Source: a virus. From it: a stretch of DNA of 64,000 bases. The first letter of the stretch is position 1, and each line of letters starts with the position of its first letter. The notes under the pieces are model-generated. The model saw only the letters and a list, made by a program, of their open reading frames with translations. It had not been told where the DNA came from and did no database searches. The DNA lies in IMG/VR virus record IMGVR_UViG_3300035698_017588, positions 1 to 64,000 of that record. The stretch is one strand, 5' to 3'. A program made the position numbers and the translations under genes. This document shows, in pieces, positions 8,763 to 46,088 of the stretch.

Positions 8763-8763
8763 A

Positions 8764-9015: not shown

Positions 9016-9017
9016 GA

Positions 9018-23866: not shown

Positions 23867-24321
23867 TATGATTCTGTCTCCCAAGAGCTTGCACCCGGAG
23901 GCACAGGCTTCGGTTCGAACTCGGACTTGAATTGCGGGTGTATCAAAAACGAGAGATAATTTGGGTCGGTCGCCACCGCTTTTGTTTCCAAATCGACCTC
24001 AACAGCGGTGACAAACACCAAAAAAGCCGGACCATTCACAATTGGTTCGCCAGATATCTCACAATCTGCTCGGCCTCTGCGTTTTTTCTGCTGAAGTATA
24101 ACATTCGTACCAATGACTTTCTGGGCGAATTTGCCATGACAATTGCCACACAAATCAAGAGATCCTATAGCAGCTTTGCGATTTGCTTTAAGAACGGAAG
24201 GCCCCATACCATTGATGATATTGACACCACAGAGATCGTAACTGTAGTATCTGAACTTCGATTTCAATTTCATGTGACAAAGATCACACGATATTCCATC
24301 TTTAGTCGTAAGCTGGGCCAT
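23866..24321 (-). CDS. Hypothetical zinc-finger protein (151 aa)
   Basis: Starts MAQLTTKDGISCDLCHMKLK. A first CxxC is followed by LDLCGNCHGKFAQ, giving a four-cysteine ribbon of about 50 residues, then a beta-rich region. It directly follows the Pol III C-terminal gene with a 1-base overlap, so it is transcribed with the replicase pieces. Function unknown. Confidence 0.5.
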   Translation of the reverse strand: MAQLTTKDGISCDLCHMKLKSKFRYYSYDLCGVNIINGMGPSVLKANRKAAIGSLDLCGNCHGKFAQKVIGTNVILQQKKRRGRADCEISGEPIVNGPAFLVFVTAVEVDLETKAVATDPNYLSFLIHPQFKSEFEPKPVPPGASSWETES

Positions 24322-25520
24322 TAATCTTTCCGATTCAACGGGATTATCACATTATTACGCAACATCGTAAAGGACTTGCGTTTCGGCTGATAAGTCACCG
24401 GAATCATACAAGCAACACCCTTCCTCAGGACCGATGGGTTAATCTTCTCTAGATTGTCGCTCCAGATGAAAACTGTCGTGGTTTCACGACCATCAGTAAC
24501 ATTCAATCGACAATAAGGATCACCCTTCTGAGTGCTACCTCTATGTGCTTCATTGATAATGCATTCGAGGAAAGCAGCCTGCTGAGTCATGAAATCCTCA
24601 ATACAACCCTGGATATCCCGATTAGCCCGAGTATCATACATCAAAAGCGGATTGGATAGATGATAACCCAAATACTCTTCTTCATAATCAATGATTTCCG
24701 AGATCTTATAATCGTCGAACAATTCATTGAAAGTCTTCAAATCGTGCTTATCTTCTGGCATCCATTCAGTCACCCGCTTAGGATAATTAGCTTCCTTCTT
24801 GCGAGGGAATAAATCACGATAGGCGTCAACCTGACGATCACGTTCATTCTCGATCTCGGAAGGCGACCAACCAACATGCTCAATCAGAGTCGGATACAAC
24901 TCACGACGTTCAGCAGTCTTCATCTTCTTATACTTATAAGCATAATAATGCCACAAAGCCCGGCGATTCTCATGCTCCGGAACCTTCTCGAAAGCCCCAA
25001 GACGAATCAAACGCTCAACAAGAGTCTTACCAGCATTCGTACGTTCGATAAAGTCATCAAGCGATTCAAAAGGCCCCTCGACCTCAGTGATGGCACGATC
25101 TGATTCACCGATGCCCTTAATCGAAAGCATACCGACCGAAACAACATTGCCAATCACGCTAAAATTAGGGCTCAGATTGTTCACATCAACAGGGATGATC
25201 TCAAACTTCTCGTAGCCCTCTTTCGGGGGTCGTCCGAGCTTGGTGATCTCAGTAGGGTGCCAACCTTCTGCACGGGCCACGGAGATATAACGGGGAGCCT
25301 TCTTTGGGTCACACGTACTCAGAACCGACGCGATCCACTCTGGGAAGAAGTGAGCCTTGAACCATGTGCAGCGATACGCGATAATAGCAGCGTACGCAAC
25401 TCCGTGACTATTTTTGTGAATAACGGAACTATTGCCGGTCAAATAGTTGTGGTGTTTTGATTGCATCTCTGGCGAATAAGTTCTTTTAACACCCAAAGAA
25501 GTCAACGATTTAATTTTCAT
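24321..25520 (-). CDS. dnaE: DNA polymerase III alpha subunit, C-terminal piece with C-intein
   Basis: 399 residues. Residues 1-37 are a C-intein (MKIKSLTSLGVKRTYSPEMQ to the terminal Asn); the +1 Ser 38 starts SHGVAYAAIIAYRCTWFKAH, the well-conserved fingers segment of bacterial DnaE. Further on, MLSIKGIGESDRAI is the helix-hairpin-helix, and the C-terminal OB fold appears near VFIWSDNLEKINPSVLRKG. The spliced chain would have palm from 26997-29003, fingers and C-terminal DNA-binding domains. A tau-binding tail is not obvious. Start overlaps the endonuclease stop (ATGA). Confidence 0.9.
   Translation of the reverse strand: MKIKSLTSLGVKRTYSPEMQSKHHNYLTGNSSVIHKNSHGVAYAAIIAYRCTWFKAHFFPEWIASVLSTCDPKKAPRYISVARAEGWHPTEITKLGRPPKEGYEKFEIIPVDVNNLSPNFSVIGNVVSVGMLSIKGIGESDRAITEVEGPFESLDDFIERTNAGKTLVERLIRLGAFEKVPEHENRRALWHYYAYKYKKMKTAERRELYPTLIEHVGWSPSEIENERDRQVDAYRDLFPRKKEANYPKRVTEWMPEDKHDLKTFNELFDDYKISEIIDYEEEYLGYHLSNPLLMYDTRANRDIQGCIEDFMTQQAAFLECIINEAHRGSTQKGDPYCRLNVTDGRETTTVFIWSDNLEKINPSVLRKGVACMIPVTYQPKRKSFTMLRNNVIIPLNRKD
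25410..25520 (-). mobile_element. Split intein, C-terminal half (Pol III alpha)
   Basis: 37 residues ending SSVIHKN before +1 Ser. Length and layout match known short C-inteins of the DnaE/gp41 split type. Partner half at 27000-27320. The SKHHNYLTGNSS stretch is block F. Confidence 0.85.
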
Positions 25521-27046
25521 ATTTTCAACCCATATTTCAAATTACCAGAATCCCACAATCTACGATAGCCGTTTGCGAACATATTTTCTGACTCAGTGAG
25601 ATCAGGATCAAAATGATCTAGTTTCTCAGAAAGTTTATGCTTTTGAAATGACCTTCTGTTATACAATTTATTAGATCTCCAATATCTATAACCAGGATTC
25701 GTGATACCATTAAATGTCATCCCAAATTTAGAATAACACGTATCTTGAGTAGTAAAAGATCGATCGACAAATGTTTCGATACAAGTCGGTTTGTCGAATT
25801 TAATAAAGCTTTTCATGAGTTTGGAAAAACCGCCAATAACGGTATGTCCAATAATATTTGCAAATCTGGAGATGGAATAATTTACATCATTTCTGGTTAG
25901 AGATAAAACAGAAACAATTTTACCATCATTCTCTAGAGCATACGCCACATGCGGCATAACTCCACAATGATAATGATTATCATCAAAAAATCTTTTAGCC
26001 TGCAAATTGTCCATCTTGATAATAGAGCATTTTCTTGCGTAGATCCTAGATGATAAACCCAAAGAATTTTTTATCATCGAATCTGCTACGATTCTTCGTT
26101 TAGAATAATCAAGATCAACAAACTGCAACAACTTAAAACCTCTTCTATAAGCCATGGCAGATTTCATAGAATGATAGTTTCTGTGATATGTCGATTCTTT
26201 AATATTGAATGAATGAAAATAAGCACCATGATATTCTATACCAACATTAGCATCAGGTAGCCAGATATCCAATTCCAAACCATTTAAAATAGATCGGTTA
26301 GATCTTTCTATTTTACCATCATAAACAGAAGCGATCCAATCAGCCAGTTCATTCTCTGGAATAGAAGTCAATTTCTCAGTGTTGCATTTAGGACAGCCAT
26401 TTTTCTGTCTAACATGCCCAGTTGGTCTAGTTTCAAAATCACCGTGTTTAGGACATACGACTATCACTTTTGTTCGCTGATTTATATATATCGTTTTTGA
26501 ATAATCATATTTATTACCATGGGTCGCAACACACCTTCCGATGAATTCTTCCTGGTTTAAAGTTCGTGGGTCATCTGATGGACTATCATAATAATCGGAC
26601 CTAGCTTTAGTCACTCTGTCGACATAATCTTGATCTGTGCGAAATTTTTCCTTGATCGCCTTTGACATTTTCTCCTTGAAGTCTTCAGAAACAGAAAGCC
26701 TTTCATGATTGATCACCATTTTCTCACGATAAGAAGGATCTTTCCATCTTTCTTTGGCTGTTTCAGATCTTTTTGAAAAACTGGAAGACTTCGACGCAAC
26801 AATAGACTGTCTCTCTTTAAAAGAGTCCAAAGAACGAAAACATTTCGGACAATGATAACAATTAACGTGTTTAGATTGATTATTAACCTTCCTAACATGA
26901 TCATAAAAATTCGTATCTGAATTCTCATTGCAAGAATAACACGACACAATAACTCTATGCTTCAGCTTTGGTTTAACATGACCTGGATCGACCAATCTAA
27001 GGCGTGGTGATCTCCAATCCTTTGGCAACAATTTCTCTAACTTCAT
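25517..27046 (-). CDS. Homing endonuclease (zinc-ribbon repeats plus Vsr/EDxHD nuclease) inside the fractured Pol III gene
   Basis: About 509 residues from ATG 27046; ATG 27058 is also possible. N-terminal cysteine pairs (SCYSCNEN; YHCPKCFRSL) are followed by basic helical units (ETAKERWKDPSYREKM) of the NUMOD type. A DUF723-like unit follows (EFIGRCVATHGNKYDYSKTI ... CPKHGDFETRP ... GCPKCNTEKL). The nuclease core reads NGLELDIWLPDANVGIEYHG and AYFHSFN, with the catalytic Asp and Glu and the YxHS motif. The C-terminal 170 residues (FFDDNHYHCGVMPHVAYALE, ending MFANGYRRLWDSGNLKYGL) are nearly the same type as in the gene at 32507-33943. Its placement between intein halves marks it as the mobile gene of a fractured gene. 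Confidence 0.83.
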   Translation of the reverse strand: MKLEKLLPKDWRSPRLRLVDPGHVKPKLKHRVIVSCYSCNENSDTNFYDHVRKVNNQSKHVNCYHCPKCFRSLDSFKERQSIVASKSSSFSKRSETAKERWKDPSYREKMVINHERLSVSEDFKEKMSKAIKEKFRTDQDYVDRVTKARSDYYDSPSDDPRTLNQEEFIGRCVATHGNKYDYSKTIYINQRTKVIVVCPKHGDFETRPTGHVRQKNGCPKCNTEKLTSIPENELADWIASVYDGKIERSNRSILNGLELDIWLPDANVGIEYHGAYFHSFNIKESTYHRNYHSMKSAMAYRRGFKLLQFVDLDYSKRRIVADSMIKNSLGLSSRIYARKCSIIKMDNLQAKRFFDDNHYHCGVMPHVAYALENDGKIVSVLSLTRNDVNYSISRFANIIGHTVIGGFSKLMKSFIKFDKPTCIETFVDRSFTTQDTCYSKFGMTFNGITNPGYRYWRSNKLYNRRSFQKHKLSEKLDHFDPDLTESENMFANGYRRLWDSGNLKYGLKI

Positions 27047-29003
27047 GATACAGGCCATCCTCACATAAAAATTTATGGTCTAAAGTCACGTCTTCGCAAG
27101 AACCGTCTTCGAACTCTACTCTAAAGATTTCTTGTTCACCAGAATAACTAATATCCACACAATGATCTATGAACAAATCTTGTCCATCATATGACCAAAG
27201 ACTTGGTAATTGATTATGTTCAAGAAAATCACTTGTCACGGGGGGAGAGTCACACCATTCTTGAATAGTCATCTCTAATCCAGTAACAACACATTTCAAT
27301 TTTGTGTCGTATGACAAACATTTATTAAAAGCGTAGCGACCGAAAGTCTCAAGCTTTCCCCAATATTCCTCAGCAAATTGTGGGCCAAGAGTCTTTGACG
27401 CACCACGAATCCATTTTTCTTTGATAGCTGGGAGCTTGTGGACCTTCTTCTTCGCAATGTCCTTCCGACTCATCTGAGCCTCGGTGGCCGAAAAACCACC
27501 CAGACGTTGCCAAAGAGCCGTCAACTGTTCCTGATAAGTACAAACACCATAAGTCTTCTCAAGGATCTCGAACATAATCGGGTTGCGAGCCTTAAGCTCG
27601 CCCTTCCACGATTGAGTTGGATCATCACGATTAGCCAAAACAGTAGGAATCGACTGCATCGGGCCAGGGTGCCCGAGAGCATTCAACAATGTCAACTGGT
27701 GCGGATCACTGACACCCTCACCCTCAGATGCGTCAGCCAAAATCGACTTGGCCAATGACGTATCGAACTGGAAAATCGTGTCCGTCCGTTGGGTGTTGAT
27801 GAGCTTATAAGTCGCTTTATCATCATAGCGAATCTCGTGCTCGTTCCCATCCAAGTCATAAAACTTGCCACAATAACCAGCCTCGGGATCGACATCATCA
27901 AGACCCGAAAGCTCATAGCAACCGCCATATCCCTCGATCTCTTGTGGAATACCAAAAGTAATCCCGCGATTCGCCTTGATCATATAACAACAGTTATAAA
28001 TGTACTCCAAGGTCTTAAGACCAAGAATGTCCCATTTAATATATCCGCATTTGGATAACTGTTGATTCCCGCCCTCAGACCACATCGAAACCCAAGGGCC
28101 ATCAACCTTATTCTTACCAAGCGGGATGTTGCCAAGAAGCTTGGTACTGGCGATGATTAGAGCACCCGCATGCATGCCCATGTTGCGAATTCGACCGACC
28201 ATTTTAGCCGCATAGCCAATAGCAGCCGGGAAACGACGAGCAAAATCAGCTAAAGGCTCGTTCTCTTTCAACAGACGTTCGAGAGTCGGAGCGTCAGTTA
28301 GTTCACTACCACATTTCGGACATTGATAACGAGCGTGGCGATTGCCACACTCACGCATTTTGCCGCTCTCGTCTGTGATGTTGCCTTTACAAGTAGCCAG
28401 ACCACCGGGTTTGAGGTTATCAAGATCATCGGGGAGATTGGAAGTCAGCTTTTCAGCTTCGTTCCTATGCATCAATCCTAAAGCGGTTGCTGCGTCTTGG
28501 ATCGCCATCTTGAATTTGTATGTCTGCCATGTGCCGACACTACACACTTGAAGATCGCCCAATCCGTTCCCATCACCATAACGTCTGATGGCGTAGTCTT
28601 TGATCGGATCGCGGGCCGCTGGGAGACAGTCAATGTCAATATCTGGGACATCATTGTCTTTTTGGAAGTCATGGGGTGGACTACCATGCTTCTCGACGTA
28701 TGCGGCGACGTCGTCGTAGCTTGTGCTGATTAGGCATTCCGAGCCTCGTTGAGACATGGGATCGACGGGATCTGTGAGCATCCCGAGAACCCATGGTATT
28801 AGCAGATTGTTCGGATTCGAGTCGAATTTGGCTTCGGTGTTGAGATACTCGATCCAAAGACCATTTAAACCTTGCTTGTTCAGTTCGTACAACTCGAACT
28901 CAACACGATCCTTGTATTGTTCTGGTAAGTGGTCGGCTGCTTGCTTTACAGACTCTTCGAACTCTTCCCAGGTTTCAATCTTGTTTAGCAGCGTTGTACT
29001 CAT
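26997..29003 (-). CDS. dnaE: DNA polymerase III alpha subunit, palm piece with N-intein
   Basis: About 668 residues from ATG 29003 (MSTTLLNKIETWEEFEESVK). The catalytic aspartates are at VPDIDIDC (120-125). Palm and fingers segments follow, with a Cys-rich insert (LATCKGNITDES ... YQCPKCGSELTDAP) that may bind zinc. Later DTIFQFDTSLAKSIL and VCTYQEQLTALWQRLGGFS are typical DnaE fingers motifs. The chain reaches FGRYAFNK, where the N-intein begins. The upstream zinc-finger gene overlaps the start by 29 bases. The first 100 residues resemble a worn second copy of the segment that ends the PHP piece. With the PHP piece and the C-piece it would form a complete replicase. Confidence 0.9.
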   Translation of the reverse strand: MSTTLLNKIETWEEFEESVKQAADHLPEQYKDRVEFELYELNKQGLNGLWIEYLNTEAKFDSNPNNLLIPWVLGMLTDPVDPMSQRGSECLISTSYDDVAAYVEKHGSPPHDFQKDNDVPDIDIDCLPAARDPIKDYAIRRYGDGNGLGDLQVCSVGTWQTYKFKMAIQDAATALGLMHRNEAEKLTSNLPDDLDNLKPGGLATCKGNITDESGKMRECGNRHARYQCPKCGSELTDAPTLERLLKENEPLADFARRFPAAIGYAAKMVGRIRNMGMHAGALIIASTKLLGNIPLGKNKVDGPWVSMWSEGGNQQLSKCGYIKWDILGLKTLEYIYNCCYMIKANRGITFGIPQEIEGYGGCYELSGLDDVDPEAGYCGKFYDLDGNEHEIRYDDKATYKLINTQRTDTIFQFDTSLAKSILADASEGEGVSDPHQLTLLNALGHPGPMQSIPTVLANRDDPTQSWKGELKARNPIMFEILEKTYGVCTYQEQLTALWQRLGGFSATEAQMSRKDIAKKKVHKLPAIKEKWIRGASKTLGPQFAEEYWGKLETFGRYAFNKCLSYDTKLKCVVTGLEMTIQEWCDSPPVTSDFLEHNQLPSLWSYDGQDLFIDHCVDISYSGEQEIFRVEFEDGSCEDVTLDHKFLCEDGLYHEVREIVAKGLEITTP
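27000..27320 (-). mobile_element. Split intein, N-terminal half (Pol III alpha)
   Basis: 107 residues, CLSYDTKLKCVVTGLEMTIQ to the stop. Close in style to the N-intein of cyanobacterial DnaE (CLSYxT start; EQEIFRVEFEDGSCEDVTLD as block B with DHKFL). The insertion site is K before S in FNK-SHG, three residues downstream of the cyanobacterial site (Y before CFNK). Confidence 0.87.
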
Positions 29004-29934
29004 CCAGTTTTTCCGGGTGCTTTTGTTTGACGTGATTGGTAACACCGAAGGCTTTCTTCATCGTTTTGTCACAGTAAGGACAGGAAAAACCTTCAGTCGG
29101 TTTCTCTATCACTTCTGGTACTTCCTCTTCGGAACCACGGGGATCAGCGGTTGGTGCTTCCGTGGTGGTATCCGTCTCGGAGTCGTCTTCAAGGAATTGT
29201 GGTGGCACATCATTGTCGACCACTAAATCTTCAACGTCAACGGCGGCATCGGATGATTTGGTGAAGTTCCGGAGCGAGACTGGAAGCAACACCCATGGGC
29301 CTTCTGCGACGATGTGTTTTCCCTGTATTGTAAACGAGCTGTAATACAAGAGCAGATTATGATCGTTCGATTGGGAAACGATCTCTTGCAGATGCTTCTT
29401 AGAGAAAGCCTTGCGGAATCCGACGATTTTGGATGGTGGTTCGACTAAGGCGAAAACGAATTTTTCATAGTCGAGGTCATTTAGTGATTTGCCGATATCG
29501 ACAGCGACATTCCCGCTGTCATCTTGACTGTAGAACACAGAAGGGGGCAGGTTTTTCACAATGATTTCATCCACAATAGCACGTTCGTCAGAAGCAGCCA
29601 AAAGAGACGATTCAGCTGATAATAATTTCTCAATCACCAAGTCTGGTGCACCGTATTCAACACGCTTGAATTTGTCACGCCACTCACCAAGCACCTTCTC
29701 AGTACAAGATGACTCATCTGGGCTGACCAATATCAATTCGTGTCGGAAATTACCTATTGTGGCAGCTAAAGCCAATAATTCACCGCGACCGGCAGACGGG
29801 CAAATCTCAGCAGAACCAAACCAACGTGCCATGTAAAGCATGGAGTAGTCTCCATCTTTCATCTCACGTTGGACTTGGAGAGAGCAATAAAGTTGTCGGT
29901 CAATTATTGAGTCGTCGTACTGAATTCTGATCAT
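28975..29934 (-). CDS. Hypothetical protein with C-terminal C2H2 zinc finger, between Pol III pieces
   Basis: About 319 residues from ATG 29934 (MIRIQYDDSIIDRQLYCSLQ). The first 250 residues are an unassigned alpha/beta protein (AATIGNFRHELILVSPDESS). An acidic/Thr linker follows (DDSETDTTTEAPTADPRGSE), then a single classical finger FSCPYCDKTMKKAFGVTNHV with KQKH. The start overlaps the stop of the PHP piece in ATGA, and the end overlaps the palm piece start, so it is made in step with both polymerase pieces. A structural or loading role for the split replicase is possible; inference only. Confidence 0.6.
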   Translation of the reverse strand: MIRIQYDDSIIDRQLYCSLQVQREMKDGDYSMLYMARWFGSAEICPSAGRGELLALAATIGNFRHELILVSPDESSCTEKVLGEWRDKFKRVEYGAPDLVIEKLLSAESSLLAASDERAIVDEIIVKNLPPSVFYSQDDSGNVAVDIGKSLNDLDYEKFVFALVEPPSKIVGFRKAFSKKHLQEIVSQSNDHNLLLYYSSFTIQGKHIVAEGPWVLLPVSLRNFTKSSDAAVDVEDLVVDNDVPPQFLEDDSETDTTTEAPTADPRGSEEEVPEVIEKPTEGFSCPYCDKTMKKAFGVTNHVKQKHPEKLDEYNAAKQD

Positions 29935-32483
29935 GTTGATGAAACCGGTTTTGGCATGGATGCATTGAGACGGTATCCACCACGGGCTTCTGCAAGGAAC
30001 CGGTCGAATGACAGGTCCCATTTCAGAGGATCGATCGAGGATAACCCTAGTAAGTAACAAACCAAACTACCACCACCACTACCCCGTGGACCAAAGATCC
30101 ATCCCTGCGACTTTCCATACATAATCAGATCCTGAGTAATCAAGAAATAACTAGCAAAGCCTTTGGAAATAAAACGAGTCAGCTCGATAGTAGCTTGTTG
30201 GACGTAAGTGACCTCACGACCATCGATCACGAACTTGCGATCGACCTTATCAAGACCTTTCATTCTCAACGCTTTCATCACAATCTCAGTCAGCTTCGTA
30301 GCATCATCAGTGATACGCGGAAACTTTGGATTGCTATCCAACTCAATGTAATCACACTTATCAACAATCTCAAGAGTAGCATCACACATAGCCTCGAAAG
30401 CACTAGATGACACCTTCTCACAGTAGCGGTTCGACGCATAATAAGACCAAAGCTCAGCCCTGGTCTTAAAATATTGCTCGCTACTATTCACATGGAACAA
30501 ATCAGGAGAATCAACAGTCGTCCCCTGAGCCGTAGCCATCATGATCTTCTGGATCTCGAAGTCCTTACGCTGAATGTAATGAGAATTGCCAGATGACAGA
30601 CCGACCAAGAAGGAATGATCATCTTCGACTTGTATACACCACACTTCTTTTAAATCAGATTTAACGACTTTAAATGGATTTTTAATCCAAACTCCATGGT
30701 GATCTTGATGATGTTTAGATCTAACTTTAGAAGCGTCAAAATACTCGCCCAACCCAATCGCAAAGATACCAGCTTTACCGATAGAACCAGTATAACCCTC
30801 CCTATGTCTTGTTGATATCCTACGACCGTCTTTTTTCTTGATTATAGCATCTTTAGCGGGTCGTAGCTGCGGAGTAACCCCGACACCAAGACAAGCAAAA
30901 GCGTGCATTAAATCAGTGAAAAGTTGGAAGGATGTAGTAAAAAAACTGCGACGAGAAATACAACCATCACCTTCAACGTAACCTCGTATTAAAACCGACA
31001 ACTGACGAGATGATAACTTAGTCCAAAATTGCGGTAATTTCTTAGCATAAACAGAAAATCCACAACAATTAGCGAACAATTTGGAAAAACCAGAAGAACA
31101 GATTCTAATTGATCTGCCTTTATCAGATACTTTAGAGATATCACTTGGAGAAAAACCAAATTGGGTAAAATATTCTTGTATCCGACTGAAACGATCAAGT
31201 TCCAAATCATTACCAGCAAATCCGAGCCTGTAGTCCTTATCGGTATGACCTTCAGCAATGTAAATGCCGAACAACCATAATAATTCATCAGTCAATTCTA
31301 TGACATTTGGTATCGGATTTATCGATTTGCCGCCAAATGGGTAAATCAACCCATCCCTTACTTTACATCTAGGGTCGTCAATATAATCACTAATAGTCAA
31401 TTCTTTTAAATCGTCATCAGGAAGAATGGGAGCGGCTACGTGTATAAAATCATCGGGACTAATATCACGAATCTCTTTCATTCCAATCAAACCGGTTTCA
31501 TGGCATTTAGAATACAATCTATGATTTTCAGTGCATACCATCACTTGGCTACCCAGAAAACCATATAATTCTTCTCTATCTCTAACCTTTCTCTTACCAA
31601 TACACTGTACTTCTCTAAGACGATTTTTATGTGTCCAAACATACTCACCAGGGCGAATGTCGCACAGCCTCTTAGAACCATTGATAGTCTGAACAGTAAC
31701 CTCAGGATTCCAACAATCATTCGCAAGAACAGTCTTCAATCCAAAATAATCTGCCAAGCCTACTAGATCCCAAAAGACCTCGTAGTCATCCTCAATCCCT
31801 GGCATTTGCAATTCGATATAGTAATCCTCACCGAATGCATCCTTAAACTTCTTTACCCACGTCGCAGCAGCTTGAAAACGCTCCTTACGAGTAGTCTCAA
31901 CAATGAGATTATCCTCTTTGTCTCGAAGCTCCTTATACCGAAGCTCATGAGCCACGGGACCATTGAGGCACCCGCTGAGAATAATCAAGCCTTCCCGGTG
32001 TTTACAAAGCTTGTCGAACCAAATACGGTTCATTTTACGACTACCAGCCCCGAAGAGCCCATCATCATAAGCTTCCGTGGTCAATTTGAGCAAGTTATGT
32101 AAACCCTGCTCTGTCTTGCAGAGCACGGTAAGGTGACGATTACGATTGATTCTAGTGGCGAGTGCGAAATTCTCAGCACGCCAAGCCTGACTCTTGAGCT
32201 TTATGCCTTGTTCGACCAACGACTGTCTTTGGGGTTCATAATCATTAAAATAAATCTCGCAGCCAAATATACTTTTCAGACCGTGTTTTTTGAATTCAAA
32301 ATGAAAATCTGGAACAGATCCCATATGACCATGTTCAGTGATGGCCATGCCGGGCCATCCATTATCGACACATTTTTCGGCGTATTCTTCGATAGTCGCT
32401 ACACCATCAAGTGCCGAATAAATCGAATGACAATGAAGGTGGGCAAATCCCGAAGATCCGGTATATTCGCTAGGTTCAGGCAT
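29931..32483 (-). CDS. dnaE: DNA polymerase III alpha subunit, PHP-domain piece with contiguous intein
   Basis: About 850 residues from ATG 32483 (MPEPSEYTGSSGFAHLHCHS). The PHP metal motifs are kept: HLHCHSIYS, AITEHGHMGS, IFGCEIYF, LSGCLNGP, and the final Asn-Asp-x-His, which is interrupted by an intein (residues 257-633) after VLAND. After the intein, SHYIQRKDFEIQK continues the domain. The C-terminus runs into the start of the palm (GFASYFLITQDLIMYGKSQG, PRGSGGGSLVCYLLG) and stops at VSST, shortly before the catalytic aspartates. The upstream in-frame start at 32525 would overlap the endonuclease gene on the other strand and adds a hydrophobic stretch foreign to the family. Confidence 0.9.
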   Translation of the reverse strand: MPEPSEYTGSSGFAHLHCHSIYSALDGVATIEEYAEKCVDNGWPGMAITEHGHMGSVPDFHFEFKKHGLKSIFGCEIYFNDYEPQRQSLVEQGIKLKSQAWRAENFALATRINRNRHLTVLCKTEQGLHNLLKLTTEAYDDGLFGAGSRKMNRIWFDKLCKHREGLIILSGCLNGPVAHELRYKELRDKEDNLIVETTRKERFQAAATWVKKFKDAFGEDYYIELQMPGIEDDYEVFWDLVGLADYFGLKTVLANDCWNPEVTVQTINGSKRLCDIRPGEYVWTHKNRLREVQCIGKRKVRDREELYGFLGSQVMVCTENHRLYSKCHETGLIGMKEIRDISPDDFIHVAAPILPDDDLKELTISDYIDDPRCKVRDGLIYPFGGKSINPIPNVIELTDELLWLFGIYIAEGHTDKDYRLGFAGNDLELDRFSRIQEYFTQFGFSPSDISKVSDKGRSIRICSSGFSKLFANCCGFSVYAKKLPQFWTKLSSRQLSVLIRGYVEGDGCISRRSFFTTSFQLFTDLMHAFACLGVGVTPQLRPAKDAIIKKKDGRRISTRHREGYTGSIGKAGIFAIGLGEYFDASKVRSKHHQDHHGVWIKNPFKVVKSDLKEVWCIQVEDDHSFLVGLSSGNSHYIQRKDFEIQKIMMATAQGTTVDSPDLFHVNSSEQYFKTRAELWSYYASNRYCEKVSSSAFEAMCDATLEIVDKCDYIELDSNPKFPRITDDATKLTEIVMKALRMKGLDKVDRKFVIDGREVTYVQQATIELTRFISKGFASYFLITQDLIMYGKSQGWIFGPRGSGGGSLVCYLLGLSSIDPLKWDLSFDRFLAEARGGYRLNASMPKPVSST
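30585..31715 (-). mobile_element. Contiguous intein with LAGLIDADG endonuclease in the Pol III PHP domain
   Basis: 377 residues from CWNPEVTVQTINGSKRLCDI to LSSGN, with +1 Ser. Block B is QVMVCTENHRLYSK, block F is WCIQVEDDHSFLVGLSSGN. LAGLIDADG-type helices are LLWLFGIYIAEGHTD and LSVLIRGYVEGDGCIS, each with the catalytic acid. It appears intact and therefore likely active. Confidence 0.87.
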
Positions 32484-32506: not shown

Positions 32507-33943
32507 ATGGCAAGAAGAAGAACACAAGAAGAATTTATTGAACAAAGCTTAAAGAAACATGGCGAAAAATATGATTATAACAAATCTGATTATATAAATG
32601 AATATACTAAAATAATAATAATATGCCGAGAGCATGGCGAATTTGAGCAAAAACCGTCAATCCACTTAAAGGGACATGGGTGCAGAAAATGCCGATATGA
32701 AAAATTAGCAGCCAATATGGGTGGTGGATTAACCGGTTTTATTAAGAAAGCTTCTAAAATTCATGATAATAAATACGATTATTCAAAAGTTGAATATTCG
32801 ACATCACAGAAGAAAGTGGTTATCATATGTCCAGAACATGGTGAATTCGAACAATTACCGTGTAATCATATTAATAAGTGTGCTGGTTGTTTGAAGTGTT
32901 CGACCGCTTACCAACCCACAAATAAAGAATTTATAAACAAACTTGTTTATAAATTCGGAGAAAGGCATGATTATTCTAAAACTATATATACATCATCGAA
33001 AGACAGAATTACTGTAATATGTCCAGAGCATGGTGAATTTCAAATTAGAGCTGAATCTTATGTAAGATCTGGATCTTGCCCTAGATGCTGCTCGTCTAAC
33101 GAACAATTGGTGATCCACGATTTTGTTACCAGCTTCGAACCAACGGCAAAATCGAATGATAGGGAAGCCATACGCCCTTTAGAATTAGATGTCTATATTC
33201 CAAGCAAAAAACTTGGAATAGAATATAATGGAAATTATTGGCATTCATTTAACAGAAATGAAACAACAGAAGAGAGAAAGAGGCACCAAACAAAATTCGA
33301 GAAATGCGAAAAATCTGGTATAAGATTATTTCAAATAAACACCACGGAATATGAAGACAAATTCGAAATAGTCCAATCTATGATCAGACACAGATTAGGA
33401 TTATCAAAAAAGGTCGGTGCCAGAAAAACAATGGTCAAAGAAATATCTAACAAAGAAGCGGGAATTTTTTTAGACCGCTGTCATATTAGTGGCCACAGAA
33501 ATGCATCTAAAAATTATGGATTGATTCTTGACGACAAATTGATCGCCACAACCACATTTAGTAAATATAAAATAGGTTGGGAAATAATAAGATACGCCAA
33601 CGAGTTAAACATAACCGTGGTAGGCGGTTTTTCTAGATTACTAAAATCATTTATAATCGACAATCGACCGAAAACAATCATGACGTTTGCTGATCTAAGA
33701 TATGGAAGTGGAAATGTTTATAAAGAATCTGGCTTCGAGTTAGTGAAACGAACGAAACCAGGATATGTCTATCTTGACTCTAATGCAAGATATATGGGGT
33801 CTAGGATAAAATTCCAAAAACATAAACTTGAAAAAATTTTAGAAGTCTTTCATACAGAACTAACGGAATCTGAAAACATGTTTCTCAACGGTTATAGAAG
33901 AATGTGGGATGCTGGGCATAATCAGTTTATTTTGAATCTCTAA
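32507..33943 (+). CDS. Free-standing homing endonuclease with DUF723-like repeats and Vsr/EDxHD nuclease
   Basis: 478 residues. Three repeats of about 60-65 residues share the pattern FIEQSLKKHGEKYDYNKSDY, then IICREHGEFEQKPSIHLKGH with a CRKC pair: the DUF723-type zinc-ribbon unit used for DNA binding. The nuclease core is EQLVIHDFV, then LELDVYIPSKKLGIEYNGN followed by YWHSFN, with the EDxHD acidic residues. The C-terminal domain (ISGHRNASKNYGLILDDKLI; TESENMFLNGYRRMWDAGHN) matches that of the gene at 25517-27046. Strongly AT-rich and antisense to the operon in which it sits, 24 bases from the Pol III PHP start codon. Confidence 0.83.
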   Translation: MARRRTQEEFIEQSLKKHGEKYDYNKSDYINEYTKIIIICREHGEFEQKPSIHLKGHGCRKCRYEKLAANMGGGLTGFIKKASKIHDNKYDYSKVEYSTSQKKVVIICPEHGEFEQLPCNHINKCAGCLKCSTAYQPTNKEFINKLVYKFGERHDYSKTIYTSSKDRITVICPEHGEFQIRAESYVRSGSCPRCCSSNEQLVIHDFVTSFEPTAKSNDREAIRPLELDVYIPSKKLGIEYNGNYWHSFNRNETTEERKRHQTKFEKCEKSGIRLFQINTTEYEDKFEIVQSMIRHRLGLSKKVGARKTMVKEISNKEAGIFLDRCHISGHRNASKNYGLILDDKLIATTTFSKYKIGWEIIRYANELNITVVGGFSRLLKSFIIDNRPKTIMTFADLRYGSGNVYKESGFELVKRTKPGYVYLDSNARYMGSRIKFQKHKLEKILEVFHTELTESENMFLNGYRRMWDAGHNQFILNL

Positions 33944-38762: not shown

Positions 38763-39862
38763 TCTACGCCTATGTTATCAACTGTGTACAGTGAATCGCC
38801 TTCATGGATAATCTCACTGTTTAGCTGCTCCATTAAAGACTTATTATATTTATCTGCGTGTTTATCACGATCAAAATATCGGCTAAAGAGATCTTGAACT
38901 TGCATCCTGGACGGAGCACCATGACCCCTATTAACTTCGGGCTCAAGGGAATCTTTCAGTCGAAGGAATCTGACGACCTTTGCTCCCTTATCCAACAATT
39001 CTTTCCGGTATTGAGTCGTCAAATCATCAGGGAGATACTGCTCCGCAATAATCCGAAAATGATTCCCCATCACATCATGTTCCGATAAACCAGCCACATC
39101 ATCAAGACCAATCGTTAACATATGAGGGGGAATCATCTGGCCAGGATTATCAGTGTACATCAGAGGACGCAAATCCACGAAGCTATGCTTCCCGGTGTCA
39201 CAATCGTATTCAACAAAACCATGGGGCACAACACCCTCATCGAATGAGAAAGGAATCGGCGACCCCACATAGTGAGTCTTCACGCCAGCCCGATGATAAC
39301 AATGAAAATGTCCGGTGAAGACCTGACCAGCCGCTCGGTGGTCGAAATTAATGGCCTTTTGTTCTTGGAATAAGAAGCAAAGGTTGTACGAGGCCCCGAT
39401 ACATCCAATGTGAGTGAGTAAAACGTCGCTTTGGCGACATTCCTTGTCGATCTCGTCGACGACGTCCATATAAGCCTTGTCGACGGCGATGAACGGGATC
39501 ATCCAAAATCGACGGTCAAATAACTCGACGCGATGAATGTCTTCCAGCACGTGACAGACGTCCGCTAACGGTCGGAGTGATGTGATTTTCCAGTTGTACT
39601 TGTAGTACATGTCATGATTGCCTGGAAAGACATACCATTCTTGATCGTATTCTCTTTTCGTAGCCGCGAGAAACTCATAAACGACGTGCATCACTTCAAC
39701 GTTAATTGACTCACGATCATGGAAGAGATCACCCAAAACAAAAACGTGTTTAATACCGTTCTTCTGGGCGTAACTCCGAATCGATTTCGCTGCCATCAAA
39801 ATGTCTTTGGTCCGACCGTGAAGACCAAAATGAAAATCTGCCGTTAAAAGGACTTTGCTCAT
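38759..39862 (-). CDS. SbcD/T4 gp47-like metallophosphoesterase nuclease subunit
   Basis: 367 residues. Calcineurin-type motifs appear in order: LTADFHFGLHG (8-16), VLGDLFHDRESI (44-50), FPGNHDMYYKY (81-84), DVLLTHIG, and FTGHFHCYH. With the SbcC-like protein at 44277-46088 it should form the Mre11-Rad50-like complex that processes DNA ends; in T4 gp46/gp47 this is essential for recombination-dependent replication. Here the two subunit genes are on opposite strands and separated by an intein-bearing helicase and an endonuclease gene. Its ATG shares CATG (39860-39863) with the divergent helicase gene. Confidence 0.9.
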   Translation of the reverse strand: MSKVLLTADFHFGLHGRTKDILMAAKSIRSYAQKNGIKHVFVLGDLFHDRESINVEVMHVVYEFLAATKREYDQEWYVFPGNHDMYYKYNWKITSLRPLADVCHVLEDIHRVELFDRRFWMIPFIAVDKAYMDVVDEIDKECRQSDVLLTHIGCIGASYNLCFLFQEQKAINFDHRAAGQVFTGHFHCYHRAGVKTHYVGSPIPFSFDEGVVPHGFVEYDCDTGKHSFVDLRPLMYTDNPGQMIPPHMLTIGLDDVAGLSEHDVMGNHFRIIAEQYLPDDLTTQYRKELLDKGAKVVRFLRLKDSLEPEVNRGHGAPSRMQVQDLFSRYFDRDKHADKYNKSLMEQLNSEIIHEGDSLYTVDNIGVD

Positions 39863-42695
39863 GTCTGAAACAATTCCAGCTCAAGTAATTGATGAAAATC
39901 TGATCGATGCCTGTTTCCCAATGGAAACCTATCGACCACAACAAAAAGAAGTAATACAAGGGATAGTTCGTTCAATCAACGCAGGCTACAAGTACATCAT
40001 TGCCGAATGCCCAACCGGAAGCGGCAAAAGCCCAATCGCTGTGGCAATCGGAGCCCTAGCAGGAACCGAACGTGCTTACTACATCACAACCACAAAACAC
40101 CTGCAGGACCAGATCGAAACGGACTTCCCAACCGTCGTCACGCTCAAAGGCCGCAATGCCTATCCTTGCACCGCATACCAGAACTTCCAGACTCGACTCT
40201 ACACGATCCTGGGAAAAGACCGGTACACCCAACAAGCAGGTCAAGAACTCAGCTGCGACGAAGGATACTGCAAAACCAACACCGGCAAAGCCAGCTGCAG
40301 CATGTGCCTCCCAAGCCAAGAGGACAAAGACTCAGGCCGAGTCCAACTGCCACAGGACATGAACTACAGCTTCTGCCCATACTACGAAAAGCTCTACGGC
40401 GGGATCAACGCCCAAACCTGCTCGATGAACTTCAACAACTTCATCCTGCACCTGAACGCCGGGCACCGATTCTCCAAACGCAAAATCCTCATCATCGACG
40501 AATGTTTTCATGCACACACATTCATCGAAACAGAAATTGGAAGAATTCCAATTGGAAAAATAGTAAACCAAAATCTGCAAGTAAGGGTAAAAAGCTGGAA
40601 TTTCGAAGAAGAAAAATTCGAATATAAACGAGTCACCAGATGGCTAAAAAGAGATGAAAACCAGACATTCAGAGTTCTGGCTGGCAACAGAATAATGTAT
40701 CCCACTATGGACCATAAGATTTATACCCCAAATGGTTTAAAAAAGTTGTCTGATTTAAGGATCGGAGACCAAGTCATGGTAAATCAAAATCAGATCACAG
40801 ATGACCAAGAACAATTGGTCTTAGGGTCCTTGTTGGGTGACGCATCACTTGATATTGTCGAATCAAAAAGAATTTCGAAAAAACATGTCAATAAAGGCAA
40901 TAGAGCAAGAATAAGTTTTCGACATGGGCCGAAACAATATGAATACTTGCTTTGGAAACATTCTTTATTAAAAGGACACGTCGGAAATAAACCCAAACTA
41001 GAAAAATCGAAAGGTTTTGGAAAAACAACAGCCAGATTCCAAACAAATTGCGGGTTTTATGATACGATCATGCCGACAATATTAGGCGGTCGTAAAACAC
41101 CAAAAGATTCATGGTTGAATAAAATCGGACTACTCGGTCTGGCAGTGTGGTACATGGATGATGGTGGAAAATCGAATGAGACGTGCAGATTTCACACTCA
41201 AGGATTTGATTATTCAGAAGTGGTTACATTAAGAAATTGGTTAACAACCAAATGGGATCTTGCAGCCAGCGTGCACGAAGAGAAAAAAGAAGATGGGAGA
41301 ATCTATTTCTATATCTCATTAAACAGACAATCATCAAGAAGGCTAATGTGGATTATATCAAAATTTGTGCCAACACATATGAGATATAAATTACTTGAAT
41401 TCAAAAAATGCAATCAAGACGGGGTTTTAGACAAGTCCATTGAGAACGATTCATGGCCTCAATACAACGACCAAATAGAAAATCAAGATGTAAAAGAAAC
41501 GACATTTCAACCGATCATCTCGATCGATCAGTATAAATATGATTACACCTATGACTTAGAAGTAGAGGATAATCATAATTATGTTGCAGGAAACACTGTT
41601 GTTTCTAATTGCCACAACACCGAAGCCAAGCTGCTTGATTATCTCGAATGTACAGTGAGCAGCCGACACATCGAAACCAAAATCCCAGAACTCACCAACC
41701 CGATGCAATACGTCACATGGTTGCAACAGATCGGGGCGTTGCAATATCTCAAGGACAAAATCGAAACAGCTCGGGAAAGCCAAAATCTCCGGATGATGAC
41801 GACTTATGAGGGACTGTTCAAGAAGTACATCAATATGATGATCGAGGTCAAGGAAGATCCAACAGGGTGGGTCGTCGAGTACGAAGAAGACAAGAAAACG
41901 GACACGACCAAAGCGACTCTCAAACCGATTTTCGCTCACCGGGCTGCGAAGAATTTTCTATTCAAGTTCGCTGATCACATCGTCTTCTTGAGTGCGACGA
42001 TTCTCAATGCTAAGACTTTCGCACGAAACCTTGGAATCCAAGAGGGAGAATACGCCGCTATGCGTATCCCATCGCAATTCCCGATTGTTAATCGCCCGAT
42101 CACGACTGATTTCGCCGGTCGATTCACTGGTGGCAAAGCCAAAATGAACCAATGGATCGGTGATATGTCTAATAAGGTAGTCGATATCGCACTCCGTTAC
42201 AAAGAGCATCGCGGGATCATCCACACTCACTCATTCGGCATTCAACGAGCCCTCATCGAGAAGCTTCCACCGGTAGTGAGTAATCGATTGATTCAACAAT
42301 TCGATTTTCAGACCAAAACCGAAATGATCGAAGCCCATGCGAAACGTCCGGGCTCTATTATCATCGCACCGGCCATGCATGAAGGTGTCGACTTGAAGGA
42401 TGATCTGAGCCGATTCCAGATCCTTTGCAAGGTGCCTTTCGCCAATTTCTACGAGAACAAGCAACTCGAAGCTCGAATGGAGCTTGACTCAGAATATTAT
42501 GACTACATTACCATACTCAAAATTATACAAAGCGTAGGGCGCAGTGTTAGAAGTATGACAGATTGGGCAGATACTTTTATTATTGACGAGTCTTTTGACC
42601 GAATTTATCGGAATAATCAAAATTCTTTTCCATTGTGGTTCAAAGAAGCCGTAACCAAGGAGATACCAAATGTCCGCAAAAAGGAAAAGATTTAA
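39861..42695 (+). CDS. XPD/DinG-type DECH-box helicase with intein and a replaced C-terminus
   Basis: About 944 residues from ATG 39861 (AAGGA 8 bases upstream). Walker A is ECPTGSGKS (49-57), followed by cysteines at about 103, 132, 137, 146, 149 and 172 that may hold an iron-sulfur cluster as in XPD/DinG. Motif II is IIDE then CHN, split by the intein (215-583). After it come FLSATILNAKTFARN, APAMHEGVDLKDD and motif VI QSVGRSVRSM. The XPD/DinG family unwinds 5' to 3'. From about 42480 the coding style turns AT-rich, and the last 35 codons (42588-42692) match a second copy at 44180-44275 downstream of the endonuclease gene. Confidence 0.88.
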   Translation: MSETIPAQVIDENLIDACFPMETYRPQQKEVIQGIVRSINAGYKYIIAECPTGSGKSPIAVAIGALAGTERAYYITTTKHLQDQIETDFPTVVTLKGRNAYPCTAYQNFQTRLYTILGKDRYTQQAGQELSCDEGYCKTNTGKASCSMCLPSQEDKDSGRVQLPQDMNYSFCPYYEKLYGGINAQTCSMNFNNFILHLNAGHRFSKRKILIIDECFHAHTFIETEIGRIPIGKIVNQNLQVRVKSWNFEEEKFEYKRVTRWLKRDENQTFRVLAGNRIMYPTMDHKIYTPNGLKKLSDLRIGDQVMVNQNQITDDQEQLVLGSLLGDASLDIVESKRISKKHVNKGNRARISFRHGPKQYEYLLWKHSLLKGHVGNKPKLEKSKGFGKTTARFQTNCGFYDTIMPTILGGRKTPKDSWLNKIGLLGLAVWYMDDGGKSNETCRFHTQGFDYSEVVTLRNWLTTKWDLAASVHEEKKEDGRIYFYISLNRQSSRRLMWIISKFVPTHMRYKLLEFKKCNQDGVLDKSIENDSWPQYNDQIENQDVKETTFQPIISIDQYKYDYTYDLEVEDNHNYVAGNTVVSNCHNTEAKLLDYLECTVSSRHIETKIPELTNPMQYVTWLQQIGALQYLKDKIETARESQNLRMMTTYEGLFKKYINMMIEVKEDPTGWVVEYEEDKKTDTTKATLKPIFAHRAAKNFLFKFADHIVFLSATILNAKTFARNLGIQEGEYAAMRIPSQFPIVNRPITTDFAGRFTGGKAKMNQWIGDMSNKVVDIALRYKEHRGIIHTHSFGIQRALIEKLPPVVSNRLIQQFDFQTKTEMIEAHAKRPGSIIIAPAMHEGVDLKDDLSRFQILCKVPFANFYENKQLEARMELDSEYYDYITILKIIQSVGRSVRSMTDWADTFIIDESFDRIYRNNQNSFPLWFKEAVTKEIPNVRKKEKI
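40503..41609 (+). mobile_element. Contiguous intein with LAGLIDADG endonuclease in the helicase DECH box
   Basis: 369 residues from CFHAHTFIETEIGRIPIGKI to NTVVSN, +1 residue Cys. Block B is NRIMYPTMDHKIYTPNGLKK, block F is DYTYDLEVEDNHNYVAGN. Endonuclease helices are LVLGSLLGDASLD and LLGLAVWYMDDGGKS. Much richer in AT than the flanking extein. Splicing rejoins DE with CHN to recreate the Walker B box. Confidence 0.9.
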
Positions 42696-44181
42696 TTGCC
42701 ATAAATGCGGAAAATCATCAGAAAAAACCGTTCCCAATTTTTACAAACAACTTAAAATCTACGGTTGTTCATATTGCACAGATTGTGCTATAAAGATAAG
42801 GAATTCTAATAACTCAAAAAGAGAAAAAGAAAGAAATAAATCGAAGATAAAGAATAAAGATCTTGTTGGGGCAATATGTGAGAAATGCGGGCAAACCAGA
42901 TCGATTCAATATAGATTAGCAAAACAATCTAAACTATGCTACTCTTGTGCGGCCAAAGAATCACATAGATCACATCGCGATTCATATTTAATAGGACAAG
43001 ACAAACTAAAAAACAATAATAATTTCAAAAAACTAGTATCAAATGGTATAATGGCGGCTTCAACGCCAGAACAAAGATCAGAGAACGCAAGAAAATCTGC
43101 TGAATATTGGAATAATCCAGAAATTAAAGAATGCATCTTAAAAAGACGCATGGAGCCCGAATACCGCAAAACCATGAGGGAAATTTGGGATAGACCGGGA
43201 TATAGAAAAGCGGCCTCAAAAAGAGCCAAAGAACACTTTAAAAAGTTGTGGCAAAACGAAGAATTCCGAAACAAAATGGCAATAGCAAGAAGCAAAATGC
43301 CTAGGGAATCAAGCCAACAAAAGATTCTTTCGAATATACTCGATGATCTTAATATAGAACATTTCAAGGAATACCCAATAGGACCTTGGTGTTTTGATTC
43401 ATTCATCCCAGAACATAACTTATTAATAGAAGTACAGGGAGAATATTGGCACTCACTACCAAAGGCTATTAGAAACGATAGATCGAAGAGAACATATATT
43501 ACTAATTATACCGACTACGATGTGTTGTATTTATATGAAAGAGACTTTTATTCCAACAACACTGTCCTGAATAAATTATTAAGTAAATTCGGCATATCTT
43601 CTGTAGATGAAAAAAAATTTGATTTTTCAAATGTATCAATAAAAGTAGAAGAAAATAAGACCATTTCAGAATTTTTATATTCATATCATTATCTCGGGAC
43701 AATAACACACAGTAACAATATTTGTTTTTATCTCAATGATGAATTAATAGCGGTTGGGTGTATAGGGCCATGTTCAAGAAATGAAACGCCAAAAAGACAC
43801 GGCTTAACCAACAATGAATGTCGAGAATTAAGAAGATTTTGTATAAAACCTGGATATCATAAGAAAAATTTCGCTAGCTGGTGTTTGAGTAGAATAAGGT
43901 CAGAACACAAAGAATCAAGACCAAAAACAAAAAGAATTTATAGTTTCGCCGATAGCACCATGGGGCACAATGGCACAATCTATAAAGCGGATAACTGGAT
44001 ATATGATGGTGACACTCAGCCATCATATTATTATATCAGTAATAATGGTTGGGTTATGCACAAGAAAAGCCTGTATAATATGGCCATAAAAATGGGTTTA
44101 AAAGAAAAAGAGTATGCAGAATTACATGGATACGCAAAGCAACATACAGATAATAAATCAAGGTTTTATAAAGACATCTGA
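42670..44181 (+). CDS. Free-standing homing endonuclease (Vsr/EDxHD type) at the helicase 3' end
   Basis: 503 residues. The N-terminus has zinc pairs (FNCHKCGKSSEK; CSYCTDCAIK; AICEKCGQTR; LCYSCAAKES), followed by basic helical repeats (NARKSAEYWNNPEIKECILK; RAKEHFKKLWQNEEFRN). The nuclease core is SQQKILSNILDDLNIEHFKE, WCFDSFIPEHNLLIEVQGE and YWHSL, the EDxHD pattern. The C-terminal 180 residues are a GNAT-like fold (FLYSYHYLGTITHSNNICFY; ELRRFCIKPGYHKKNFASW), also known from phage homing enzymes. It overlaps the helicase stop by 26 bases; its own stop codon overlaps the start of the stranded original helicase end. Very AT-rich. Confidence 0.83.
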   Translation: MSAKRKRFNCHKCGKSSEKTVPNFYKQLKIYGCSYCTDCAIKIRNSNNSKREKERNKSKIKNKDLVGAICEKCGQTRSIQYRLAKQSKLCYSCAAKESHRSHRDSYLIGQDKLKNNNNFKKLVSNGIMAASTPEQRSENARKSAEYWNNPEIKECILKRRMEPEYRKTMREIWDRPGYRKAASKRAKEHFKKLWQNEEFRNKMAIARSKMPRESSQQKILSNILDDLNIEHFKEYPIGPWCFDSFIPEHNLLIEVQGEYWHSLPKAIRNDRSKRTYITNYTDYDVLYLYERDFYSNNTVLNKLLSKFGISSVDEKKFDFSNVSIKVEENKTISEFLYSYHYLGTITHSNNICFYLNDELIAVGCIGPCSRNETPKRHGLTNNECRELRRFCIKPGYHKKNFASWCLSRIRSEHKESRPKTKRIYSFADSTMGHNGTIYKADNWIYDGDTQPSYYYISNNGWVMHKKSLYNMAIKMGLKEKEYAELHGYAKQHTDNKSRFYKDI

Positions 44182-44275
44182 GTCTTTCAACCGCGTCTAC
44201 CGCAATAATCAAAGCTCGTTCCCTCAGTGGTTCAAAGAAGCGGTAACTGACATTATCCCAAAGGTCGACAGATAA
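44180..44275 (+). pseudogene. Stranded original 3' end of the helicase gene
   Basis: 31 codons plus stop reading ESFNRVYRNNQSSFPQWFKE, AVTDIIPKVDR. 22 of 31 positions are identical to the current helicase C-terminus (42588 onward: ESFDRIYRNNQNSFPLWFKE...). No start codon or continuous frame links it to a gene now: it begins directly at the endonuclease stop (TGA overlapping GAG). Its base composition is like the phage core genes rather than the endonuclease. I infer it is the original end left behind when the endonuclease gene brought its own recoded copy. Confidence 0.85.
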
Positions 44276-44276
44276 T

Positions 44277-46088
44277 ATGCTTGAAATTGCTAAATTCTCA
44301 TGGTCCAATTACTTAAGCTTCGGTGATTACGTATCAACCGTTGACTTGACCAATTTGAAAGAGTGCTTCATAACCGGGACCATTGAAGACGAAAACGGCA
44401 ATCTGCTCGATGGACGATCCAACGGAGCCGGTAAGAGTAATGTCATTTCGGCCCTTCAATGGACGCTTTTTGGTCGCACCACTCACTCAGCCAACCCCGG
44501 CAATAAAATCAGAAACTGGGGCAGTAAAGCGGATACGTGGGGCAAGGTGGTCCTCGAAAACGGCGATAACATCCTCAGAACACGCACAGCAGATGGAACC
44601 ACGGAAGTCACCTTCTATCACGCTGGAGAAGAAACGTGTGCAACAGCCGACACACTTGGCACGCTCAAAGCACAACAAGCCAAGCTGAACCAAGCATTCA
44701 AGCTCGATTGGGATATCTTCTCCAAAAGCGTTTTCTTTTCATGCTTCGACAAGCCCTGGTTACAAATGAGTGACCAGAAGCGGAAAGAGGTTTTAGAAAA
44801 GCTGCTCAAGTTGGATAGATTGGGATATTACGCCAAGAGTGCTCAAGCGAGAGCCGGTGCTGATACCAGAGATCTTGAGACACAAAAGACTGAAATCAGC
44901 AGCAGAATCCGATTCTTAACCGATCTAAAGACACAGACAGAAGCCCAGAAGAATGCTGCAGACCAATTTGAAGTCAACCGCACTAATCGTATCAACGCCA
45001 AAATCCAACAAAAGAACGACACACAGGTCCAGCTTGACCAATGCCAAGTATACGATATTGAATTAGTACGTGGGTGCTGGGAGCGATATAATGCTCTCAA
45101 GGCCCAAATGACCGAGAAGATCAACGCAGTCCAGACTAACAGGACCAAGACGGCGAATAGCTATAATTATTCTATGCGGCGGGTGGCGGATCTTCAACGA
45201 GAGATCATGGCGTGGGAGAGCAAGAAAGGTACTACGTGTGCGTCTTGCGGTCAGCCGGTTGCCGATGGTCATGTTCATGAGCAAACGACGCCGAAGAGCG
45301 AAGAAAAGGCTTCCTTGGAGTCAACGTTGCCTGATCAAGCTGGTCAGATCGAAGCGATGGATGCGATGATCGCCAAGGTTCAAAAGGTAATGGTCGAACA
45401 AGCACCAAAGATCGAACTGAGCGTTGTAGAAGCAAACGAACGGTATCGGGTGAGCCTCCAGCATCAGATTCAAGGCTTTGATGCCGAGATTGTTCGGATT
45501 CAAGAAGAGGTCGCTCCGAACGTCCAGGCGATGGATGAACTCAAGTCATCGTTGGGTCGGATTAAGCAGGAGATCGGCGAATGTCAGAAGAAGGTCGGAA
45601 TTCTCGAAGAGAGAATCATCCACCTTGAGTACATCCGCAAGGCTTATAGCGATCGATCGAAAGTCAAGAGGGATATTGTCGGACAGCATATTCCCCTAAT
45701 CAATGAAAGACTTCGGTATTACTTGGATGTAATGGAGCTTGAAGTCAAAGTACAATTGACTGATAGTCTTGGAGTAGAGAGTAATTATTGGGGGTACGAT
45801 TTTCAGAGTAATGGTGAGAAACGTCGTACTGATGTGGCGATGATGCTAGCTACTTATGACCTCCATGAGCAATTGTATGGGCGTCAGTGCAATATGCTTG
45901 TTCTTGATGAGGTTGATGGTCAAATGGATCGTCAGGGGATCAACGCACTGATACATATTATTAAGAATGATTTGGTCAATCGTGCCGGATCGGTTTTTAT
46001 CATTTCGCACAATAATACAATGCAGAGTGTATTCGGAAGCGAAATTAAAGTACGCAAGCGTGCTAAGTTGTCATACCTAGAGTCATAA
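44277..46088 (+). CDS. SbcC/T4 gp46/Rad50-like ATPase
   Basis: 603 residues. Walker A is GRSNGAGKSNV (46-54), preceded by WSNYLSFGDY of the SbcC first strand. A coiled-coil follows to about residue 320, where TTCASCGQPV gives the zinc-hook CxxC, then a second coiled-coil. The signature helix is FQSNGEKRRTDVAMMLATYD, and Walker B/D-loop is MLVLDEVDGQMDRQG, then VFIISHN. It is the ATPase partner of the SbcD-like protein at 38759-39862. Length fits T4 gp46 (560). Start is 1 base after the stop of the stranded helicase end, showing the original helicase-gp46 spacing. Confidence 0.92.
   Translation: MLEIAKFSWSNYLSFGDYVSTVDLTNLKECFITGTIEDENGNLLDGRSNGAGKSNVISALQWTLFGRTTHSANPGNKIRNWGSKADTWGKVVLENGDNILRTRTADGTTEVTFYHAGEETCATADTLGTLKAQQAKLNQAFKLDWDIFSKSVFFSCFDKPWLQMSDQKRKEVLEKLLKLDRLGYYAKSAQARAGADTRDLETQKTEISSRIRFLTDLKTQTEAQKNAADQFEVNRTNRINAKIQQKNDTQVQLDQCQVYDIELVRGCWERYNALKAQMTEKINAVQTNRTKTANSYNYSMRRVADLQREIMAWESKKGTTCASCGQPVADGHVHEQTTPKSEEKASLESTLPDQAGQIEAMDAMIAKVQKVMVEQAPKIELSVVEANERYRVSLQHQIQGFDAEIVRIQEEVAPNVQAMDELKSSLGRIKQEIGECQKKVGILEERIIHLEYIRKAYSDRSKVKRDIVGQHIPLINERLRYYLDVMELEVKVQLTDSLGVESNYWGYDFQSNGEKRRTDVAMMLATYDLHEQLYGRQCNMLVLDEVDGQMDRQGINALIHIIKNDLVNRAGSVFIISHNNTMQSVFGSEIKVRKRAKLSYLES

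Follow-up and report, generated by a model that had tools for sequence, protein, structure and literature searches.

A candidate homing element carrying a diverged helicase 3′ end in a phage helicase gene

In our study, an endonuclease gene of a phage was found to be flanked by two versions of the helicase 3′ end, here called copy A and copy B. The analysed window covered 64,000 nucleotides of a 95-kb IMG/VR phage record. We consider it probable that a homing element of ~1.67 kb (roughly 42510–44187) invaded the 3′ end of the helicase gene and brought its own diverged helicase end with it, so that copy A now ends the helicase and copy B is left behind the endonuclease gene. The features of the region are listed in Table 1.

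Table 1. Features of the helicase, endonuclease and gp46 region of the window
Feature	Position	Strand	Evidence
Helicase, DinG/XPD-type, with in-frame intein, ending in copy A	39855..42695	+	phrog_2488 2e-84; Pfam Helicase_C_2 3.9e-17
LAGLIDADG intein, 369 residues, within the helicase DEAH box	40503..41609	+	Pfam LAGLIDADG_2 8.8e-26; Intein_splicing 8.5e-12
Putative mobile unit of endonuclease gene and helicase end, the latter from motif VI on (copy A)	42510..44187	+	2 differences in ~1.67 kb against L002; AT-rich
Copy A, helicase end now used, 35 codons	42588..42692	+	22/31 residues in common with B; GC3 0.40 (helicase body 0.58)
Shine-Dalgarno AAGGAG of the endonuclease gene, within copy A, 7 nt 5′ of ATG	42657..42662	+	Sequence
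Endonuclease gene, 503 codons, EDxHD nuclease and Mom-like domains	42670..44181	+	Profile matches; Pfam Mom; structure model
EDxHD (I-Bth0305I-type) nuclease domain, approximate	43309..43590	+	Profile positions 221–314 against 3r3p
Mom-like GNAT domain, approximate, residues 328–486	43651..44127	+	Pfam PF25680; top PDB hit by fold, Mom of phage Mu
Copy B, stranded helicase end, 31 codons and stop, without its own start codon	44180..44275	+	Gene order as in L003; native GC3
SbcC/gp46-like gene, next after the helicase tail in the uninterrupted order	44277..46088	+	phrog_77 1.2e-69; overlaps the helicase end in L003

Copy A retained every conserved feature of the helicase end. The initial annotation had described a 35-codon A of which 31 codons align to B with 22 identical residues, and the two copies were present as described, forming an 87-nt direct repeat that was 74% identical with a spacing of 1592. 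The A/B repeat had an E value of 2e-10, whereas the next independent protein-level repeat, likewise nearby and on the same strand, had a value of ~8e-4; within the 64-kb window, no second such repeat of A/B strength was found. The 5′ end of the endonuclease gene overlapped the helicase 3′ end by 26 nt in a different frame. Its AAGGAG Shine-Dalgarno was contained in A and was absent from B and from the helicase tail of the relative L003. At the other end, the stop codon TGA (44179–44181) overlapped GAG (44180–44182), the 1st codon of B, by 2 bases in another frame, as the initial annotation had noted, and the stop codon of B was located 1 bp 5′ of the SbcC/gp46 gene. The intein in the helicase is an independent mobile element, separate from the tail element; it was missing from L003 and present in the sister phage L002.

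The base composition of copy A was foreign. In the tract 42489–42692, GC3 was 0.35 against a mean of 0.54 in native windows of equal length, and only 3 of 1330 native windows had a GC3 as low. When codons were resampled with the amino acids fixed, p was 0.0013, a value that is somewhat generous because the left boundary of the tract was picked after the data had been seen. The endonuclease gene had a GC3 of 0.29, and a similar AT-richness was found in A together with 80–100 bp upstream of it. Copy B was not AT-rich and showed a native GC3 of 0.59 (19/31 codons). Since A is AT-rich like the endonuclease gene and carries its Shine-Dalgarno and start codon, whereas B is native-like and stands before gp46, these sequence features make it most likely that A was imported and that B is the native copy. 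Both copies lay at the positions given in the initial annotation; the foreign-looking tract, however, began earlier than copy A, and the left limit of the mobile unit is uncertain between 42489 and 42510.

The helicase search in IMG/VR found two relatives. One of them, L003, was ~74% identical in the region and contained neither the intein nor the endonuclease gene. Its helicase end (...SFERVYYKNQNSFPKWFKEAVTKSIP...) overlapped the start codon of gp46, so that an uninterrupted helicase tail led directly to gp46 and the site was empty. From this arrangement, the native order is that of a helicase tail directly before gp46, which is the position of B. The L003 tail had 20 of 27 residues in common with A and 19 of 27 with B; being equidistant from both, it does not tell which copy is native, and B is marked as such only by its place in the gene order, by composition and by the pattern of the flanks. 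The comparison proposed in the initial annotation, with the helicase end of an element-free relative, therefore did not discriminate between the two copies. Searches with the helicase, gp46 and the tail pattern in IMG/VR, and of GTDB genomes, found L003 as the only element-free relative. No close relatives were found among cultured phages, whose helicases were merely ~28–38% identical.

The second relative, the sister phage L002 (84-kb contig), contained the intein, A, the endonuclease gene and B in an order identical to that of the window, and the tail-element structure was carried by these two phages alone. Over 63.8 kb aligned, the window and L002 had 0.29% differences outside clusters. The left flank (41873–42509) contained 46 differences in 637 bp, 40 of them silent and 6 replacement, followed by 0 differences in the 182 bp of 42511–42692 and 2 differences in 1487 bp of endonuclease sequence. 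Copy B contained 17 differences in 96 bp, and further ones were found as far as 44318. A and the endonuclease gene were thus 99.9% identical to those of L002, whereas the flanks differed by 7–20%, mostly at silent sites; at the rate of the flank, the probability of 182 unchanged bases was ~1e-6. Because the same element sits between differing flanks in L002, A and the endonuclease gene look like one mobile unit, and the simplest reading of the alignment is that they travel jointly as a unit of ~1.67 kb. In the first 27 codons of B, 7 silent and 2 replacement changes separated the window from L002, where 20–25% silent changes would be expected without selection (p ~0.0003–0.001). Since the differences are mostly silent, both B copies were live helicase ends until recently, and the stranding is recent. 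The main line of the proposal in the initial annotation, that a mobile gene had brought a diverged helicase tail and stranded the native one, was therefore supported by L003, by composition and by the flanks in L002.

The window and L002 also differed in 30 short tracts, which were 4–42% divergent on the background of 0.29%. Such clustered differences suggest frequent short recombination tracts, and because of them the divergence of the flanks beside the element could be partly due to chance. It is possible that the insertion is old and shared by both phages and that both flanks were exchanged later. Between B and gp46 of L002, a 300-codon ORF was found (8666–9568, minus strand) with local sequence differences on either side; family searches gave no clear family for it, and its insertion may have altered the right flank of the element. 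Elsewhere, the genome of L002 contained weak repeats.

The alternative that survives best, although we regard it as unlikely, is that a free-standing endonuclease gene lay 3′ of the helicase gene in an AT-richer related phage and that one chance recombination imported tail and endonuclease gene together. The left crossover would then have fallen inside the helicase gene and the right junction would have been illegitimate, and the tail would be the passenger of one accident rather than a functional component of a mobile element. The divergence of the element between the two phages, 0.12%, was not below the background of 0.29%, as expected if it had been present in their common ancestor. Other members of the endonuclease family also fit this alternative, as they sit between genes and without tails. 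Our sample of the family contained 38 IMG/VR loci, of which one was L002 itself (also L007) and some were near-duplicates. With the exception of the window and L002, no tail duplication was found in the 37 other loci, nor at five endonuclease relatives in cultured phages, all of which were placed between genes. Likewise, no stranded tail was found after the helicase gene among ~78 related phage helicases. An apparent second stranded tail in L149/L150 was rejected as a case, the helicase there having in-frame TAG codons; judging from these codons, that DinG-type helicase probably belongs to a genetic code reading TAG as an amino acid. Against a single accident, however, A and the endonuclease gene occur in two helicase alleles that have diverged from each other, and on either side the borders coincide with the ends of the element; the two B copies, moreover, have diverged under selection.

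Far less probable is an in situ duplication of the tail on entry of the endonuclease gene, with later divergence of A, or the converse case in which B is the newcomer and A is native. A and B are homologous and equidistant from L003, as such a duplication would have them. They differed, however, by 10 silent and 6 replacement codons in 27, yet B is undecayed and the two phages are only 0.29% apart. The composition of A, moreover, is that of the endonuclease gene and the composition of B that of the genome, and B holds the native position before gp46. An intron with B as the true last exon is highly improbable: the entry for the type enzyme I-Bth0305I (3r3p) names it a mobile intron protein, but a full second tail copy at the intron start would be needless, and a group I or II intron was rejected since Rfam gave no intron match in the element at a lenient threshold and none in the window. 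The record is of metagenomic origin, but an assembly artefact joining two phages has next to no likelihood, as the order A, endonuclease gene, B was also found in a second contig with a differing background, flanks and nearby insertions.

The endonuclease is, by profile comparison, an EDxHD homing-type nuclease joined to a Mom-like domain. A profile of 23 relatives matched 3r3p (I-Bth0305I) at 7.2e-14 and 8bv8 (phage Mu Mom) at 1.4e-12, and the Pfam match to Mom was 5.5e-20. The residues D243, H261, D270 and K273 were invariant in the 23 relatives, and E254 was nearly so. The predicted structure had a mean pLDDT of 81.5, with Mom as the top PDB match. In L011, L012, L030 and L033–L036, members of the endonuclease family were found near a GDP-mannose dehydratase-like gene, upstream or downstream of it. 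The window itself also contained a 478-codon ORF (32507–33943, plus strand) that resembles Hef-type nucleases; its C-terminal region looked Mom-like by eye, and no Pfam match was found for the ORF at a threshold of 0.001.

In the homing mechanism that we favour, the carried end would run from motif VI to the stop codon, ~60 codons, and would be fused in frame to the resident helicase. The endonuclease would cut a helicase gene that lacks the insertion, close to the DE/SFNR codons (equivalent to 42588/44180). A copy bearing the element would then serve as the template for repair; on the left, the crossover would fall in homologous helicase sequence and, on the right, at or within the duplicated tail. 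Since the homology on the left is provided by the helicase gene, the helicase end of the element would be copied along with the endonuclease gene, and the helicase would stay whole because the new end substitutes for the old one. Copy B would remain as a leader 5′ of gp46. The original right-hand junction may have formed at a microhomology of eight bases, GAGTCTTT, common to A and B. By this scheme the element may be actively mobile, and its new tail may be protected from cutting. The target of I-Bth0305I is nearly 60 bp long (PMC3943268), so the 26% divergence between A and B could suffice to escape cutting; the recoded tail A could in this way shield the site, as the initial annotation proposed. 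The fused Mom-like modification domain is another possible route to self-protection.

The likeness to the Allomyces atp6 element drawn in the initial annotation was apt, and further cases exist among the mobile ORFs of fungal mitochondria, namely in atp6 of Allomyces macrogynus, in atp6, atp9, cox2 and nad3 of Glomus, in atp9 of Rhizopus and in cox2 of Mortierella (PMC3630166). There too, an endonuclease ORF brings a diverged in-frame C-terminal end and strands the native end, and uninterrupted relatives exist. The fungal enzymes are LAGLIDADG or GIY-YIG endonucleases of mitochondria, whereas the enzyme here is of the EDxHD-Mom kind and is encoded in a replication gene of a phage, with its own Shine-Dalgarno and start codon in the carried end and in a separate, overlapping frame. 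As the record is from a phage and not from mitochondrial DNA, the element works like the fungal tail-carrying elements rather than being a member of them. It shares its catalytic domain with I-Bth0305I (3r3p, E=7e-14), which is encoded in an intron; here no intron was detected, the C-terminal domain is Mom-like, and the element carries a gene end. In jumbo phages, fusions of Mom and nuclease domains were interpreted as a restriction-modification device (PMC7824862). The present enzyme likewise joins a Mom-family domain and a restriction-fold nuclease in a single phage protein, but it is encoded within a gene and accompanied by a carried tail, a location that suggests homing.

Like the free-standing homing endonuclease genes seg/mob of T4, the endonuclease gene is associated with a conserved replication gene, in it or next to it, and is surrounded by recombination tracts. 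In Aeh1, mobE reportedly splits nrdA, and the gene stays as two cooperating pieces, whereas the substitute end keeps the helicase whole here. Some integrating elements restore the 3′ end of the gene that they enter, by means of integrases and near-identical ends; the present element also carries a copy of the end of its target gene, but with an endonuclease and a strongly diverged end. Fractured genes, as Dassa et al. are said to have described them in 2009, contain split inteins with an endonuclease gene between the halves, which protein trans-splicing rejoins. As in those genes, an endonuclease gene has broken a phage replication gene and function has been kept, but by replacement of the helicase end instead of rejoined halves.

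The DNA polymerase III alpha gene of the window (24321–29045, minus strand) appears to be fractured and is likely a split-intein case. On that strand, the part at 26997–29045 ends in an intein-like N half, followed by an endonuclease-like gene at 25517–27064, and the part at 24321–25520 starts with an intein-like C half, after which the polymerase continues. In the phage of L002, the N-terminal polymerase III alpha gene was found to be broken by intein halves around a 337-codon endonuclease-like gene (L133, 1006–4982); the uninterrupted counterpart of this break was at ~30075–30082 of the window (GPRGSGGGSLVC). Because the window holds this split polymerase gene with intein-like halves besides the tail element, the phage appears to have two different means of keeping invaded genes functional.

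The initial annotation knew of no described case of this kind in a phage replication helicase. This agrees with the open-access literature searched, where no phage case was found, although such a negative is weak evidence of absence and no proof of it; a review of the mobile elements of T4 does not mention duplicated or truncated gene ends (PMC2988022). In our judgement it is evenly balanced whether this is the first known case of a phage homing element that enters a coding sequence with neither intron nor intein, by means of a diverged substitute 3′ end. The same even balance applies, jointly, to the reading that the carried end restores an essential helicase, holds the translation signals of the endonuclease gene and may escape the endonuclease, all beside a Mom-type domain.

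An endonuclease gene that is not to destroy the gene it invades normally depends on an intron, an intein or an intergenic site. The present case would add a further route, described so far from fungal mitochondria and now found in a phage replication gene, where ordinary phage crosses could test it. The role of the Mom domain in nuclease fusions, which have been read as restriction systems (PMC7824862), could also be studied in this setting, and the case shows how such elements can exchange the ends of essential phage genes across lineages.
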